Shown one piece after another: positions 24,958-32,270 of a stretch of 54,146 bases of DNA. Every line of letters starts with the position of its first letter. The first letter of the stretch is position 1. Both the position numbers and the translations under genes were made by a program. Source of the DNA: Anabaena sp. UHCC 0187 (GTDB lineage Bacteria; Cyanobacteriota; Cyanobacteriia; Cyanobacteriales; Nostocaceae). The notes below the pieces were generated by a model. It searched no databases. It was not told the origin of the DNA and worked only from the letters and a program-made list of their open reading frames with translations. The stretch is from positions 1 to 54,146 of the forward strand of contig NZ_VILB01000028.1 of assembly GCF_009712035.1 (NCBI RefSeq), written 5' to 3'.

Positions 24958-26442
24958 ATGGGTCAACTTACCCAATTTAATTACACCGCACAGCACAAGC
25001 CCAATCAGTTAATTTACGGAAGTGGGCAAACCGCCGTGATTACAGGGTGGATGGTGAAGCAATCTGTAGCTAAACATCTACAATCAAATGAATATGCTGT
25101 AATTGGACAGTTATACTCACCTACCAGGGGTATAAACTTACTAATTCGCAATTTGTTGTTAAATCCTCATGTTCGCTATTTAGTCATTCTCAACGCCACC
25201 AAAGAAGATAAAAATGCTGGTGCTTGTCAATGCTTAGGCGATTTTTTCCGTCATGGTGTGGAAGAAAATATTAGTGATGCTGGGCGAAAATCTTGGGTAA
25301 TTCGTTCTCAAATTCCTGGTTATATTGATATTGATATTGATATCAATGCTTTGGAAAAACTACGGCATTCTGTAGAAATTCAAGACGCTATATCAATTTC
25401 TGATGCTGTCGAAAAAATTCAATCTTACGCCCAAAAAGAAACAATTGCACCTTGGGGAACACCTGTAGAATTTCCCATGACTACAGTTGAACCAACGGTT
25501 TTACCTGGAACACGCTATGGACATAGAATTGAAGGCAAAACCATCGCGGAAACTTGGGTAAAAATCATTCATAGAATTAAAACCACTGGCACAATTAGAC
25601 CAACTGGTTATGATGGCAAATGGCAAGAATTGATAGATTTAATGGCAGTTGTCACCGACGAACCGGAAGATTTCTATTTTCCTGAACCCAATTATTTACC
25701 AATTGATAGAAGTTTTTTAGAAGAATATATTTCTCAAATTTTAGATGATGCACCAAATCGAGAAGGAGTAAAATACACCTATGGGCAACGTTTACGTTCT
25801 TGGTTTGGACGTGATCAAATTGAGCAGGTCATTGAAAAACTAATTGGAGAAATTGATGCTGCTAGTGCAGTCATGACTTTATGGGATGTGAAAGATCATG
25901 AAAAAGGTGGTAGTCCTTGTTTGAATCATATTTGGTTGAGAGTAGTAGATAACGAATTATCATTAACTGCTATTTTCAGAAGTAATGATATGTTTGCAGC
26001 TTGGCCAGCTAATGCAATGGGATTAAGGTCTTTGCAAAAACATATTAGAAATGAGATTTGTCAACGTTCTCAATATGACTTGAAGCTAGGACCATTGATA
26101 ACTCTGAGTCAGTCTGCTCATATTTATGATGATACTTGGAGTAACGCCGAACAACTGATTAAAGAACAATATTCTGCAATTTGCAAAAAATTAGATTACT
26201 ATGATCCCGCAGGTAATTTCTTAATAGAAATAGCAGAAGAAAAGATAGTTGTTACACATACAACTCCTGGTAGTGGAGAAATTGTTGGTTGTTATTCTGG
26301 GAAAAATCCTTTGAAATTAATCAAAGAAATTTGTGCTGTAATACCAGCAATACGTCCAGATCATGCAGGATATTTAGGTATAGAATTGCAAAAAGCAGCA
26401 AATTGTCTTAAAATTGACAAGCCATACACTCAGGATCAATAA
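24958..26442 (+). CDS. Thymidylate synthase domain flanked by DUF4346 sequence
   Basis: A 494-residue fusion. The N-terminal ~160 residues (YAVIGQLYSPTRGINLLIRNLL) resemble the MtrA-like DUF4346 region. The middle (about 190-410) is a ThyA-type thymidylate synthase with the catalytic Cys321 in GGSPCLNH, RSNDMFAAWP and SQSAHIYDD, the equivalents of ThyA's RSxD and S-x-H-x-Y motifs. The C-terminal 80 residues (PAIRPDHAGYLGIELQKA) again match DUF4346. It should make dTMP from dUMP using methylene-tetrahydrofolate. A hairpin follows its stop, so it is probably not in one transcript with the deaminase genes downstream, though the functions are related. Confidence 0.8.
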   Translation: MGQLTQFNYTAQHKPNQLIYGSGQTAVITGWMVKQSVAKHLQSNEYAVIGQLYSPTRGINLLIRNLLLNPHVRYLVILNATKEDKNAGACQCLGDFFRHGVEENISDAGRKSWVIRSQIPGYIDIDIDINALEKLRHSVEIQDAISISDAVEKIQSYAQKETIAPWGTPVEFPMTTVEPTVLPGTRYGHRIEGKTIAETWVKIIHRIKTTGTIRPTGYDGKWQELIDLMAVVTDEPEDFYFPEPNYLPIDRSFLEEYISQILDDAPNREGVKYTYGQRLRSWFGRDQIEQVIEKLIGEIDAASAVMTLWDVKDHEKGGSPCLNHIWLRVVDNELSLTAIFRSNDMFAAWPANAMGLRSLQKHIRNEICQRSQYDLKLGPLITLSQSAHIYDDTWSNAEQLIKEQYSAICKKLDYYDPAGNFLIEIAEEKIVVTHTTPGSGEIVGCYSGKNPLKLIKEICAVIPAIRPDHAGYLGIELQKAANCLKIDKPYTQDQ

Positions 26443-26475: not shown

Positions 26476-26483
26476 AGAAAATT

Positions 26484-26594
26484 ATGGTCATTCTTTTTTA
26501 CGAAACAGGTAAGCGGATATCAAGATTTATTCTCGGTATTCCTGATGTAATTGCTGAAATTCAATTTAATGACTATGAAGATGCTTTAAATTAG
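26484..26594 (+). pseudogene. Relic of an NDT-like gene (C-terminal part)
   Basis: The frame from 26484 encodes ILFYETGKRISRF and then GIPDVIAEIQFNDYEDAL, which aligns with the C terminus of the intact gene at 28060 (LIYETGKTISRF, GIPTVLAEIDFQDYQDAL). An in-frame TAG at 26592 breaks it, and matching sequence (LKKRLIKVE) continues beyond the stop. No N-terminal two-thirds is present. It is a dead second copy of the 2-deoxyribosyltransferase-like gene on the other side of the two deaminase genes. Confidence 0.75.
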
Positions 26595-26684
26595 TTAAAA
26601 AACGTTTGATTAAAGTGGAAACAATAGCATTTAAGATTTTTGTTCTCAGCAAAGCAGTATAGTAAACTTTACAATTGAAACATA

Positions 26685-27254
26685 ATGCAAGATATTTCCT
26701 TATCTGACGAATACCATCAAAGACCAACATGGGATGAATATTTCCTCATGTTGGCTAAATTAGCAGCAACTCGCTCAACTTGTCTTGCTTTTCCAGTGGG
26801 CGCTGTAATTGTTAAAAATAAGCAAGTCGTAGCCACAGGTTATAATGGTTCACCGTCAGGTTCGGCTCATTGTACAACTCAAGGATACTGCTATCCAGGT
26901 TTAAATAGCTGTGATGCTAGTAAAACACTACCATCAAGGGCTGTACACGCGGAAGCAAATGCGATTGCTCAGGCGGCAAAGTATGGTATATCTACAGATG
27001 GATCAAGTATATACGTAACGTTAGAACCTTGTTTATCTTGTTTAAAGTTAATTATCTCCGCTGGAATCAAAGAAGTATTTTATGAAACTTCCTTTAACAG
27101 TGGAGAAAAAGCTTTAGTTAGAGATTCCTTTGTTAACGAAGGTTTAGTTAACATTCATCAAGTTCAGCTTTCTGAGTCCATAGCAAAAAAAGCATCATCA
27201 TCTCTACTTTGTTCTACCTCTATGAGTGATGTTGACATAGTACAGAAATCATAA
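26685..27254 (+). CDS. dCMP/cytidine deaminase family protein
   Basis: The 189-residue protein matches the deoxycytidylate deaminase (ComEB-like) family: RPTWDEYFLMLAKLAATRSTC, VGAVIVK, ATGYNGSPSG, the zinc and proton-shuttle motif HAEANAI, and LEPCLSCLKLI (P-C-x-x-C zinc ligands). It should convert dCMP to dUMP, the substrate of the thymidylate synthase encoded upstream. The tail after about residue 150 is longer than in minimal members. It lies 34 bp before the dCTP-deaminase-like gene and is probably cotranscribed. Confidence 0.85.
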   Translation: MQDISLSDEYHQRPTWDEYFLMLAKLAATRSTCLAFPVGAVIVKNKQVVATGYNGSPSGSAHCTTQGYCYPGLNSCDASKTLPSRAVHAEANAIAQAAKYGISTDGSSIYVTLEPCLSCLKLIISAGIKEVFYETSFNSGEKALVRDSFVNEGLVNIHQVQLSESIAKKASSSLLCSTSMSDVDIVQKS

Positions 27255-27288
27255 ACTTACAGAAAGAGTTCTATTTACCATATTGATT

Positions 27289-28011
27289 ATGTTAAGTGAT
27301 GCCGATATTAGAAACCAACTGGAAGAAAGAAAGAACACCCCAGATAAAGGAATTGCGATAGATCCTTTTGAAGAAAAGTCTTTGACTCCTGTTGGATATG
27401 ATTTGAGAGTAGGTAGAAAAGGATTTTCTTGGAAGAGTAAATGTGAAATTAATATTCAACAGGAGGGAATTATTGAAATTCAAGCTAATGATACAGTAGT
27501 GATTGAGACATTAGAGAAAATTAGTTTGTCTAAAGAAGTCGGAGCTACTATACACGCAATGGTATCAAAATCTGTTCTGTACGGTTTATCTCATATTTCC
27601 ACCACTATAGATCCAGGTTGGACAGGAAAACTATTAATTTCAGTTAGCAATTATCGAGATAGTTCTGTAGTGATTCGATTTCAAGATTCTTTTTGTACAG
27701 TTTGCTTTTACAAAGTTGAATCTGAAGCAAAAGTACCTGGTTTTAATCGTCCCGATAGAGATGATATATGGGAAAGACTGCTAATCATAGCTCAAGAAGA
27801 AAAAGATAGACAGACAAGAGAAGGTGAAATAAAGAAAGCAAAAGAAAAAATTGAGAACAGAAATCGTATTGGCTTGATAGTAGGTTTTATCTTAATTGCT
27901 TCTTTTTTCGGTCTTCAAATTTCTTTTAAAGATCCTGCATTAGGTGCATCTCTAGCTGCTTTTCTAGCCGTTGTCAGTCCTAGTATAATTGAGCTATTAA
28001 AACGAAAATGA
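27289..28011 (+). CDS. dCTP deaminase/dUTPase-fold protein with two C-terminal membrane helices
   Basis: About 240 residues from the ATG at 27289. Residues 1-145 follow the dCTP deaminase fold: LSDADIRNQL, IAIDPFEEKSL, VGYDLRVG, and TIDPGWTGKL. The position of the catalytic Glu of dCTP deaminases (after IDPGWxG) is Ser here (LLISVSN), and the GRSS block reads VSKS, so deaminase activity is unlikely and nucleotide binding is the better guess. Residues 160-192 form a charged helix, then two hydrophobic helices (about 194-212 and 216-233) end in a basic KRK tail. A membrane-anchored nucleotide sensor is an inference. Neighbours are a dCMP deaminase and an NDT-like enzyme. Confidence 0.75.
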   Translation: MLSDADIRNQLEERKNTPDKGIAIDPFEEKSLTPVGYDLRVGRKGFSWKSKCEINIQQEGIIEIQANDTVVIETLEKISLSKEVGATIHAMVSKSVLYGLSHISTTIDPGWTGKLLISVSNYRDSSVVIRFQDSFCTVCFYKVESEAKVPGFNRPDRDDIWERLLIIAQEEKDRQTREGEIKKAKEKIENRNRIGLIVGFILIASFFGLQISFKDPALGASLAAFLAVVSPSIIELLKRK

Positions 28012-28059
28012 ATAGTATTCTTAAAAACTAATAATAGAGCTTGTTTACCCTTGACAACT

Positions 28060-28497
28060 ATGAATAAGAAAAAACTGCGTATATACATTTCTGGCGCATT
28101 AACAGGTATTGAAAACCCAACAGTAATCAAAGATTTTTATGTTGCTATTGGGTTACTTTGTGAAAAAGTGGGATTTCAAGCTTATGTTCCCCACCTCAAT
28201 ACTGACCCTCTTAAACATCCTAATATCACTCCTAGCCAAGTTTTTCAAACTGATAAATCTCAAGTTTCTCAAGCTGACTTAGTTATTGGTTATATTGGCT
28301 ATGCTTCAATAGGAGTAGGTATGGAACTTGCCTATGCTGAAACAAACTCTATACCTATTATTCTCATATATGAAACAGGAAAAACAATATCAAGATTTCC
28401 TCGTGGTATTCCTACTGTCTTAGCGGAAATTGATTTTCAAGACTATCAGGATGCCTTAGTTCAACTTGAAATTGCTTTAAAGAAATGGAATACTTAA
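28060..28497 (+). CDS. Nucleoside 2-deoxyribosyltransferase-like protein
   Basis: The 145-residue protein has the features of the NDT/DUF4406-like superfamily: YISGALTG at the N terminus, a DLVIGYIGYASIGVGMELAYA block that keeps the expected catalytic Glu in MEL, and IPIILIYE. Such enzymes break or exchange the glycosidic bond of deoxynucleosides or nucleotides; in some conflict systems relatives act as nucleotide sensors or NADases. The ATG at 28060 is preferred to a TTG at 28051. Its stop overlaps the stop of the convergent CobO-like gene. A dead copy of the same gene lies at 26484. Confidence 0.75.
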   Translation: MNKKKLRIYISGALTGIENPTVIKDFYVAIGLLCEKVGFQAYVPHLNTDPLKHPNITPSQVFQTDKSQVSQADLVIGYIGYASIGVGMELAYAETNSIPIILIYETGKTISRFPRGIPTVLAEIDFQDYQDALVQLEIALKKWNT

Positions 28498-29030
28498 GGT
28501 TGATGACTGCGACGAATTTCTGTAATTTGATCTGCCACATCTAAAAGAGACTTGGGCATTTGAGAACCTGTGAGAATAATATCAACATGAGGGGGACGCT
28601 GAGAAAGAAACTCTAAAACCTCAGTTTCCGGAATTAAACCGAAATTAATCGCTAAACTCAACTCATCTAATACCAGTAAAGAATACTTACCTTCATTCAC
28701 TACCTTTTGGGTATGTTGCCAAAGTTGTTGCAAAGCTTGGTTTTCCGCTGCGTCCAAGTCTGAATTATTAATACAACGGGGCAAATCACAACGAATCCAA
28801 TCTAAATGTTGTCCCATTTGGGTAGGTCGTTCATGTCCTTGACGAATACCACCTTTAAGGAACTGGACTATTAATACTGGTGTACCTTGTCCAGCAATTC
28901 TCAGCGCTTGTGCCATGACGCTCGTAAAAAAGCTACGCTCAGGACTAGTAAAAACTTGCACTAGTCCTTCTACAGAATATGGTAAGCTGAGAGTCGAATT
29001 TAGACCTGGGGTTTCTAGTTGGGCAACCAT
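28494..29030 (-). CDS. CobO/BtuR-like P-loop protein with a degenerate Walker A
   Basis: The 178-residue protein resembles corrinoid adenosyltransferases (CobA/CobO/BtuR) in PVLIVQFLKGG, LLVLDELSLAINFGLI, DIILTGSQMP and ADQITEI. The P-loop, normally GNGKGKT, reads SPERSFFT here, so ATP binding by the usual mode is doubtful. Related proteins with the same altered loop seem to exist in other Nostocales (from memory), so this may be a paralogous family and not a recent loss. It is convergent with the NDT-like gene. Confidence 0.7.
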   Translation of the reverse strand: MVAQLETPGLNSTLSLPYSVEGLVQVFTSPERSFFTSVMAQALRIAGQGTPVLIVQFLKGGIRQGHERPTQMGQHLDWIRCDLPRCINNSDLDAAENQALQQLWQHTQKVVNEGKYSLLVLDELSLAINFGLIPETEVLEFLSQRPPHVDIILTGSQMPKSLLDVADQITEIRRSHQP

Positions 29031-29261: not shown

Positions 29262-29840
29262 GTGGTGAGATTAGTGATTTTAGGGGGTTCTGGGGCAGGA
29301 AAAAGCACTCAAGCCCACAGGCTTGGTAAGTTTTTTGATGTTCCTTTGGTTTCTACCGGTGAAACTTTACGAGAAGCCATATATGGAAATAGTCAGAATA
29401 GTGCCTATAGTGAATTAAATGATTTAGTTATGGAAGCTAAACCTTATTTGGAACAAGGGGAATTAGTTCCAGATGAAATGATGATTGAATTTATTAAGGT
29501 CCGTCTTAAGCAAGCTGATGTCAATGATGGTTGGATTTTAGAAGGTTATCCCCGAACGGCTTTTCAATGTGAAGAATTAGATTTTTTGTTAGAAGATTTA
29601 GGACAAAATCTTAATTGGGCAATTTATTTACAAGTTTCCGCAGCAGTCATGGTTAATCGTTCTTTAGGGCGGTTACTTCCTGATGATCAACCGGAAATTG
29701 TCCAGCGGCGGGTAGAGTTATTTTATGACCGCACTATCCCCATTTTAGAATATTATGATCGGCGGCGGCGGTTATTAACTATTAATGGTGATCAATCTCC
29801 AGAACAAGTACAGCAAAATATTTTGACTTTATTAGGTTAA
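29262..29840 (+). CDS. Adenylate kinase family protein
   Basis: A 192-residue nucleoside monophosphate kinase, starting at GTG. It has the P-loop GGSGAGKST, the NMP-binding region VSTGETLREAI, LEGYPRTAFQCEELD and the arginine-rich end of the lid (IVQRRVELFYDRTIPILEYY). It lacks the longer lid of bacterial Adk. It should interconvert ATP+AMP and ADP, but a paralogous specificity cannot be ruled out, so I give no symbol. rph follows on the same strand. Confidence 0.85.
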   Translation: MVRLVILGGSGAGKSTQAHRLGKFFDVPLVSTGETLREAIYGNSQNSAYSELNDLVMEAKPYLEQGELVPDEMMIEFIKVRLKQADVNDGWILEGYPRTAFQCEELDFLLEDLGQNLNWAIYLQVSAAVMVNRSLGRLLPDDQPEIVQRRVELFYDRTIPILEYYDRRRRLLTINGDQSPEQVQQNILTLLG

Positions 29841-31575: not shown

Positions 31576-31938
31576 ATGAAAGTTGAAGAATATCTTAGAG
31601 AAGATGGTTCAAGTCCTTATCAAGAATGGTTTGATGGATTGGATGCTCAAGCTGCTGCGAAGGTTACTGTTGCTAAGTTTCGTCTGGAGTTAGGTAATAT
31701 ATCAAATGTTAAATGGTTTGAGGGAATTGGTGAATATAAAATTGATTGGGGTCCAGGATATCGGATTTATCTGGCTCAGGATGGTAAGGAACTTATAGTA
31801 TTATTAGGTGGGGGAACAAAGAAAAATCAGCAATCTGATATTAGTCATGCTAAAGAGTTGCACCAAGAGTATAAAAAGCGGAAAAAAGAAGTTAATAGAG
31901 ACCCAGAAACTGACAACAAAAATAGAGAGAAAAGGTAG
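31576..31938 (+). CDS. RelE/ParE superfamily toxin (HigB/Gp49-like)
   Basis: The 120-residue protein resembles the phage Gp49-like/HigB branch of the RelE/ParE toxins: [18 protein letters not shown], the conserved [19 protein letters not shown] and [17 protein letters not shown], then a lysine-rich tail. Such toxins cut mRNA on the ribosome or inhibit gyrase. The gene order is toxin first, with the HTH antitoxin 5 bp downstream, as in higBA systems. Confidence 0.85.
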
Positions 31939-31943
31939 TTATT

Positions 31944-32270
31944 ATGGCACTTACTAGAGATTTCAAAGAAACTGTTAATGCACGAGTGCAAAAAGATTCT
32001 CAGTTTACAATAGCTCTACTTGATGAAGCTATTTTCCTCTTCCTGAATGGTGAACCAGAAACAGCAAGATTGATTTTGAGAGATATTGTTAATGCAACGG
32101 TAGGTTTTGAACAATTGGCAATTGAAACGTCTAAACCTAGCAAGAGTTTACACCGGATGTTATCGGCAAAAGGTAATCCAACAATGGATAATTTGACTGC
32201 TATTTTGAATGTTTTGCGGAAAAAGCTGAATATTGATATCAATGTTCAAACGACAGTTATTTCTTCTTAA
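31944..32270 (+). CDS. HigA-like HTH antitoxin
   Basis: The 108-residue protein is an addiction-module antidote with a C-terminal helix-turn-helix (FEQLAIETSKPSKSLHRMLSAKGNPTMDNLTAILNVL, positions about 55-90). It should neutralise the toxin encoded 5 bp upstream and repress the pair's promoter, which lies before 31576. The pair sits between mlaE and pgl and looks like an insertion into housekeeping DNA. Confidence 0.85.
   Translation: MALTRDFKETVNARVQKDSQFTIALLDEAIFLFLNGEPETARLILRDIVNATVGFEQLAIETSKPSKSLHRMLSAKGNPTMDNLTAILNVLRKKLNIDINVQTTVISS

Follow-up and report, generated by a model that had tools for sequence, protein, structure and literature searches.

A stretch of 54,146 nucleotides from the cyanobacterium Anabaena sp. 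UHCC 0187 (contig NZ_VILB01000028.1; hereafter the window) carries, inside a thymidylate-synthesis locus, a two-gene cassette that is distinct from the deoxycytidylate (dCMP) deaminase gene beside it. The first gene of this cassette (DCD-TM, 27289..28011, plus strand) encodes a deaminase-dead protein of the dCTP deaminase (DCD) fold with a C-terminal membrane anchor, and the second (NDT, 28060..28497, plus strand) a predicted deoxynucleoside monophosphate N-glycosidase of the NDT/DNPH1 type. Our preferred interpretation, to which we assign a probability of about 0.42, is that the cassette may combine a membrane-anchored deoxynucleotide sensor with an enzyme trimming the nucleotide pool. An earlier sequence-only reading of this DNA had described an NDT fragment, the dCMP deaminase, DCD-TM and the NDT/DNPH1-type enzyme, and this gene set is confirmed. 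Its proposal that three of these genes form a single module holds in part: the grouping is real and unusual, but it consists of two things, a housekeeping dCMP deaminase and a separate DCD-TM/NDT cassette.

Co-occurrence of DCD-TM and NDT

The analysis used 291 genomes of the window's order, 386 genomes drawn evenly from the phylum, and 80 hand-chosen cyanobacterial genomes of the window's order (38 DCD-TM positive, 30 positive for thymidylate synthase [TS] and DCD-TM negative, and 12 TS negative), in which frequencies do not equal population frequencies. Two of the chosen negatives, G084 and G289, turned out to match a DCD-TM profile weakly. Loci were fetched around DCD-TM matches and TS genes, the window's own included, and cover 104 of the 108 TS genomes (four fragmentary ones, G042, G066, G171 and G205, were left out).

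The DCD-TM protein matched 36 of the 291 genomes of the order (E 1e-3). NDT, searched with a profile built from 21 NDTs of this locus, was found in 22 of the 80 chosen genomes, all 22 of which also have DCD-TM and the dCMP deaminase, and in none of the 36 genomes with canonical dCTP deaminase (Dcd). The phylum sample yielded NDT in 12 of 386 genomes, always together with DCD-TM (12/12). The 22 include ten of these; the remaining two, G532 and G583 (broken NDT), also have DCD-TM adjoining. All 24 different NDT genomes of both samples have DCD-TM, and the expectation of the sequence-only reading that the NDT-like gene and the DCD-like gene with the membrane tail travel together is borne out. Among the 44 genomes with the dCMP deaminase, 22 have both DCD-TM and NDT, four have DCD-TM only (G084, G092, G202 and G283, of which three match weakly and belong to a divergent subtype) and 18 lack both (Fisher's test, p 1.4e-8; Fisher values here ignore phylogeny).

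Gene order was compared over 42 DCD-TM loci, a count that leaves out L045 (same contig as L037), L038 and L039 (not DCD-TM) and L110 (a fragment), and includes both of the near-identical L064 and L113. The same-strand gene 3' of DCD-TM is NDT in 19 loci, an NDT-dCMP deaminase fusion in five, a dUTPase in five, a HAD hydrolase in three and another gene in ten. Within this last group, L048-L052 have canonical Dcd directly upstream, L058 has Dcd convergently downstream, L036 has a fusion of DCD-TM with an NDT fragment, L054 has a broken DCD-TM with a dUTPase past the break, and L111 has the dCMP deaminase followed by NDT. In the 80 genomes dUTPase, counted as full-length matches, never occurs together with NDT (0/11, p 0.03). 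In 35 of the 42 loci TS or ThyX is at most four genes away from DCD-TM, which does not support the earlier suggestion of a defense setting. The outcome that the earlier reading named as its refutation, a gene group conserved throughout the Nostocales at one housekeeping locus, is half borne out: the locus is a housekeeping one, but DCD-TM and NDT are distributed patchily in it and vary even between species of a single genus. Note also that the HAD hydrolase follows a divergent DCD-TM subtype (L069, L071 and L073, with a DUF2064 gene next in L069), and that a PDDEXK-type match adjoins DCD-TM in L048.

Exchange of cassette subtypes at the locus

A genome of the same genus (G229), whose locus is 92-94% identical to the window at the DNA level, has a B-type DCD-TM and NDT between the TS gene and the dCMP deaminase gene that the window lacks (1.29 kb of G229 against window position 26483/26488). 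In turn, an A-type DCD-TM and NDT lie in about 1.3 kb of the window between the dCMP deaminase and a CobO-like P-loop gene (28494..29030, minus strand; PF02572, NF005648), where G229 has 43 bases, and the CobO-like gene forms the right-hand boundary of the difference. Identity between the two is 97% for TS, 92% for the dCMP deaminase, 67% for NDT and 28% for DCD-TM.

The window retains the C-terminal third of a B-type NDT gene with in-frame stops (26478..26624, plus strand), confirmed by the NDT profile (26478-26630, E 8e-16, profile positions 98-148). The five best matches of this relic are B-type NDTs of family f1 (L060, L066, L070, L062 and L065, at 67-82%, the NDT of G229 at 82%), and its match to the window's own NDT is lower at 60%; the fragment is therefore the remnant of a B-type cassette, and the same values rule out a duplicate of the intact window NDT. 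Relative to its sister species, the window has thus lost one cassette subtype, of which the NDT fragment is left, and carries another beyond the dCMP deaminase. The same A/B difference is seen in another genus (G261 vs. G235), and further relics are a 32-residue NDT end between TS and dCMP deaminase (G266, L097) and a dUTPase end at the NDT end, before the dCMP deaminase (G140).

The dCMP deaminase and the thymidylate route

The dCMP deaminase (26685..27254, plus strand) contains the zinc-deaminase motifs HAEANA (HAE) and EPCLSCL (PCxxC) in its translation and matches PF00383 with 96.9 bits (cut-off 25; E 7e-28) and TIGR02571 with 135.7 bits, under the cut-off of 219; its relatives of solved structure are mostly named deoxycytidylate deaminase. 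Canonical Dcd is present in 36 and the window-type dCMP deaminase in 44 of the 80 chosen genomes, with no genome having both or neither. The window genome has no canonical Dcd, its sole DCD-fold gene being DCD-TM, and a TS gene adjoins. The dCMP deaminase is therefore a housekeeping source of dUMP, and its role as a nucleotide-draining defense effector, raised by the sequence-only reading, is rejected given the mutual exclusion with Dcd in 80/80 genomes and the absence of Dcd from the window genome. According to PMC10733785, the major route runs through Dcd in Gram-negative and through dCMP deaminase in Gram-positive bacteria, and its passages on eukaryotes argue that the two can coexist there; such coexistence is absent from the 80 cyanobacterial genomes.

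No dUTPase above the Pfam cut-off was found in the window genome (MazG, dimeric dUTPase and cytidine deaminase were not searched), nor a DCD-fold gene besides DCD-TM, so that, among the enzymes searched, the dCMP deaminase and the TS fusion make up the dUMP/dTMP route of this organism. The TS fusion (24958..26442, plus strand; PF00303, PF14251) joins an MtrA-like N-terminus, the TS domain and a pterin-binding DUF4346 domain. It was matched in 108 of the 291 genomes of the order (E 1e-20) and in 62 of the 80 chosen ones; ThyX occurs in 16 of the 80, none with the TS fusion, and the queries used found neither in G103 and G286.

Several features beside this route deserve mention. The TS fusion, with its MtrA-like N-terminus and DUF4346, shares the locus with the CobO-like corrinoid adenosyltransferase homologue, beyond which an adenylate kinase gene flanks it (29262..29840, plus strand; PF00406). 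Two small adjoining genes at 31576-32270 resemble, on visual inspection, a toxin-antitoxin pair of the HigB/HigA type, with no Pfam match at 0.001. In other genomes canonical Dcd genes are interrupted by about 0.5-1.1 kb within one long open frame, in the manner of inteins (L101 5274-6953 in G125, L121 9901-10956 in G002, L123 5251-6984 in G186, and genomes G240 and G256), and several ThyX genes are split likewise.

The DCD-TM and NDT proteins

DCD-TM belongs to the DCD fold. Its scores lie under the family cut-offs (TIGR02274 71.3 bits vs. 92.8; PF00692 18.7 bits vs. 22), and its head shares 18-25% identity with the listed Dcd and Dcd-Dut entries. Catalytic residues were counted over 45 aligned rows, leaving out L045, L113, L036 and L110 and including five non-cyanobacterial proteins. 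The catalytic Glu is present in none of the 44 rows with a residue at this column and in 3/3 canonical Dcd, which rules out DCD-TM as an active dCTP deaminase. The Dcd-site Ser and Arg are each kept in 1/45 rows and Asn in 44/44; the Asp column has D in 31/45 (kept in subtype A), N in 13/45 and S in 1/45. We take the Glu, Ser and Arg columns to be those numbered Glu138, Ser111 and Arg115. Crystals of E. coli E138A Dcd with dCTP and dTTP, as described in entries 1xs4 and 2j4q, indicate that loss of the deaminase Glu need not abolish nucleotide binding.

What DCD-TM has gained is a conserved GLSHIST-type motif, a C-terminal helix of 60 residues and a predicted membrane hairpin. A C-terminal hydrophobic helix is found in 43 of the 45 rows, the other two being broken open reading frames; in the window the two hydrophobic segments lie at 27868..27924 and 27940..27996 (plus strand), with Kyte-Doolittle 19-residue means of 2.21 and 1.83. 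Five A-type pairs gave ratios of nonsynonymous to synonymous substitution (dN/dS) of 0.16-0.41 for DCD-TM and 0.14-0.40 for NDT. Being well under 1 in all five pairs, these ratios indicate purifying selection on DCD-TM, which fits any function. Broken copies also exist (L036, L041 and L054): in L036 (6001-6798, Nostoc sp. CHAB 5836) a deletion fuses DCD-TM residues ~1-136 in frame to an N-terminally truncated NDT, and the membrane helices are gone.

The window-family NDT has the fold of the DNPH1/NDT superfamily and its Tyr-Asp-Glu catalytic triad. Pro44 and His45 are invariant in 21/21 sequences, and their putative equivalence to E55 and H56 of the DNPH1 lid was placed by eye. Five loci (L063, L064, L067, L072 and L113) encode NDT and dCMP deaminase as one fused protein of 327-335 residues.

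Relatives outside the cyanobacteria and defense neighborhoods

DCD-TM was found outside the cyanobacteria on six contigs representing five distinct cases, a number too small for statistics. Plasmids of Peribacillus and Priestia have it directly 5' of a dUTPase gene, and the Peribacillus pair stands directly behind a SIR2 gene that matches the PADLOC defense candidate PDC-S25 (3e-159). On viral contig L170 DCD-TM overlaps a dUTPase gene by 4 bases downstream of an amidase gene; on L165 it adjoins a cytidylyltransferase-like gene near a Vsr gene, and L166 gives the same match. An unverified gut scaffold (L169) has DCD-TM followed, 2 bases on, by an NDT-family gene (PF05014 over cut-off). Queried with its DCD protein, the viral contigs gave no relative, and the plasmid and phage matches listed besides itself were stretches annotated as Dcd or dUTPase or unannotated. 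Carriage of NDT by phages was not borne out for the window NDT, which had no match in 50,697 phage records (E 0.001) and for which a pattern scan of viral contigs turned up no relative, but the gut scaffold, filed among phages, has a different NDT-family gene. On the plasmid with the SIR2 gene, NZ_CP085396 (L167, 4387-7440), SIR2 (PDC-S25), DCD-TM and dUTPase lie close together on one strand, possibly as a three-gene operon. That plasmids and viral contigs carry relatives of the unit, in one case immediately after a PADLOC-candidate SIR2 gene, is in line with the sequence-only reading and leaves room for a conflict interpretation.

Enrichment of defense genes among the neighbors, a check named by the same reading, is not visible in the cyanobacterial loci. 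The 139 non-redundant unlabelled neighbors (at least 100 residues, at most five genes away; from 221) of 41 DCD-TM loci were compared with 139 drawn at random from 275 non-redundant neighbors (from 502) of TS loci without DCD-TM (E 1e-10): 81 PADLOC models were matched around DCD-TM loci and 76 around controls, without visible excess, a coarse comparison with overlapping models and 25 entries of each list to go by. Neither protein matches a described defense model well: PADLOC matches of DCD-TM are at most weak (E 0.001-0.008), and NDT has none. One locus without TS nearby, L056 (4032-8190), has an SNF2 helicase (DpdE/ZorD-like), a nucleotidyltransferase and a Uma2-type protein, all three matching PADLOC models, upstream of DCD-TM and dUTPase. 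The impression that no described system has this composition was upheld by literature searches, which, judged mainly from search results, turned up no account of DCD-TM with NDT. PMC13092281 (DefensePredictor) points to an unvalidated predicted system with a dUTPase, which may overlap with the DCD-TM pairs.

A possible mechanism and its alternatives

In the preferred interpretation, DCD-TM and NDT form an exchangeable two-gene cassette placed into a thymidylate-synthesis locus of TS fusion and dCMP deaminase. DCD-TM would form the trimer usual for the DCD fold and bind dTTP, dUTP or dCTP as a pyrimidine deoxynucleotide ligand that it leaves unconverted, and the long helix would relay the occupied or empty state to the membrane hairpins, making the protein a membrane-anchored sensor or regulator. 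NDT, with its DNPH1-type triad, may remove dUMP, dCMP or a 5-substituted dUMP (e.g., 5-hydroxymethyl-dUMP), a deoxynucleoside monophosphate that would arise as an unwanted product around dCMP deaminase and TS, and this removal would set the level of the sensed nucleotide. The trigger could be phage infection or an ordinary pool imbalance. A fold best known for making the thymidylate precursor has here lost its deaminase chemistry, probably become tied to the membrane and stayed under selection beside thymidylate synthase. If DCD-TM senses a deoxynucleotide, dNTP pools would be read at the membrane, which could link nucleotide homeostasis with phage conflict. With the Dcd/dCMP deaminase exclusion, the subtype swaps found in nature and the fusions of NDT to dCMP deaminase, the function can be tested directly in laboratory strains.

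Several points weigh against this interpretation. Loss of the deaminase Glu is compatible with triphosphatase activity, and the ligand binding, membrane location, trimer and interactions of DCD-TM are predicted. NDT apparently has Pro at the position, placed by eye, of DNPH1 Glu55, which PMC10603095 names as the water-activating residue, so that its hydrolytic competence is uncertain. The cassette is dispensable, because 18 of the 44 dCMP deaminase genomes have neither gene, subtypes C and D are found without NDT, and in L047 no gene up to four positions from DCD-TM is labelled as a nucleotide gene. A link to dUTPase is not significant (DCD-TM present in 8 of the 11 genomes with dUTPase among the 80, p 0.19), and the evidence beyond the cyanobacteria is limited to the contigs described above.

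DCD-TM could instead be an active membrane-bound dUTPase replacing the one missing from the window genome. This is unlikely: the motif-2 Ser is lost in 44/45 rows (a one-residue insertion in subtype A makes the column uncertain for that subtype), Asn or Ser stands in place of the Asp in 14/45, and the glycine-rich C-terminal dUTPase motif occurs in 0/45 DCD-TM proteins vs. 3/3 dUTPases. DCD-TM also lies directly before a dUTPase gene in five cyanobacterial loci, two Bacillaceae plasmids and one viral contig, and 15 dCMP deaminase genomes of the 80 have neither dUTPase nor a DCD-TM match, so that a genome without this dUTPase need not have DCD-TM. At the other extreme, a functionless leftover paralogue in an ordinary dTMP operon, which the broken copies might suggest, is already disfavored and very improbable given purifying selection in five of five pairs, the conserved new motif, the co-occurrence with NDT and the presence in other phyla. 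Another thought is a decoy, in which DCD-TM subunits would join incoming phage Dcd or dUTPase trimers and poison them at the membrane. Active sites of the dUTPase superfamily sit between subunits, and DCD-TM keeps the fold without the chemistry; Nostoc phages do carry Dcd (PMC4916379). The low identity of the head to the listed Dcd and Dcd-Dut entries makes mixed trimers doubtful, however, and the NDT partner is left unexplained; we consider a decoy quite unlikely.

A further alternative is an anti-phage pair, in which DCD-TM would sense an infection-induced change of pyrimidine dNTPs or a phage Dcd or dUTPase, the hairpins would damage the membrane, and NDT or dUTPase would keep the signal low. 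Subtype exchange at one locus with relics left behind and the contrast between 28% identity in DCD-TM and 97% in TS fit such a pair, as do the two Bacillaceae plasmids (one pair behind SIR2), the viral contigs with amidase and Vsr genes, the NDT domains described in abortive-infection fusions (PMC3710099), and the dCTP deaminase and thymidylate genes brought in by Nostoc phages A-1 and N-1 (PMC4916379). Set against this are the missing PADLOC excess, the weak or absent PADLOC matches of the two proteins, the lack of relatives of the window NDT in phage records and viral contigs, and selection compatible with any function, and we regard an anti-phage role as fairly unlikely. Its broader form is comparably tentative: an undescribed family of phylum-crossing two-gene conflict modules, in which a deaminase-dead trimer of the dUTPase superfamily would read the pyrimidine dNTP pool or capture phage Dcd or dUTPase, act via membrane hairpins and be checked by NDT, dUTPase or Dcd as interchangeable pool enzymes, might in cyanobacteria have settled in the host thymidylate locus, to be swapped subtype for subtype.

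Comparison with known systems

Compared with dCTP deaminase and DCD-fold dUTPase (E. coli Dcd; Thermococcus dUTPase, 8y1w), DCD-TM lacks the deaminase Glu and the Dcd Ser and Arg and adds the GLSHIST-type motif, the 60-residue helix and the C-terminal membrane hairpin. Anti-phage dCTP deaminase (NF041025, PADLOC dCTPase) shares its zinc-deaminase domain with the window dCMP deaminase (94.7 bits vs. cut-off 400; PADLOC 8e-34). Unlike in this dNTP-depletion defense, only the deaminase part matches, and the window gene encodes a 189-residue protein replacing Dcd. The phage dUTPase that induces staphylococcal pathogenicity islands is likewise a trimeric dUTPase-superfamily protein acting in signalling; it differs in its phage origin, its binding to the Stl repressor and its normal dUTPase activity, and the portion of PMC5593958 describing it mentions no membrane anchor. 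Relative to DNPH1/RCL, MilB and nucleoside 2'-deoxyribosyltransferases, the window NDT apparently has Pro for DNPH1 Glu55 (PMC10603095; placed by eye), and its family adjoins or is fused to dCMP deaminase.

This last arrangement recalls human nucleotide sanitation, where dCMP deaminase turns 5-hydroxymethyl-dCMP into 5-hydroxymethyl-dUMP, which DNPH1 then converts to the base. The same two enzyme types are here neighbors or fused, but the window pair, with predicted substrates, is prokaryotic, lies within a dTMP locus and is tied to DCD-TM.

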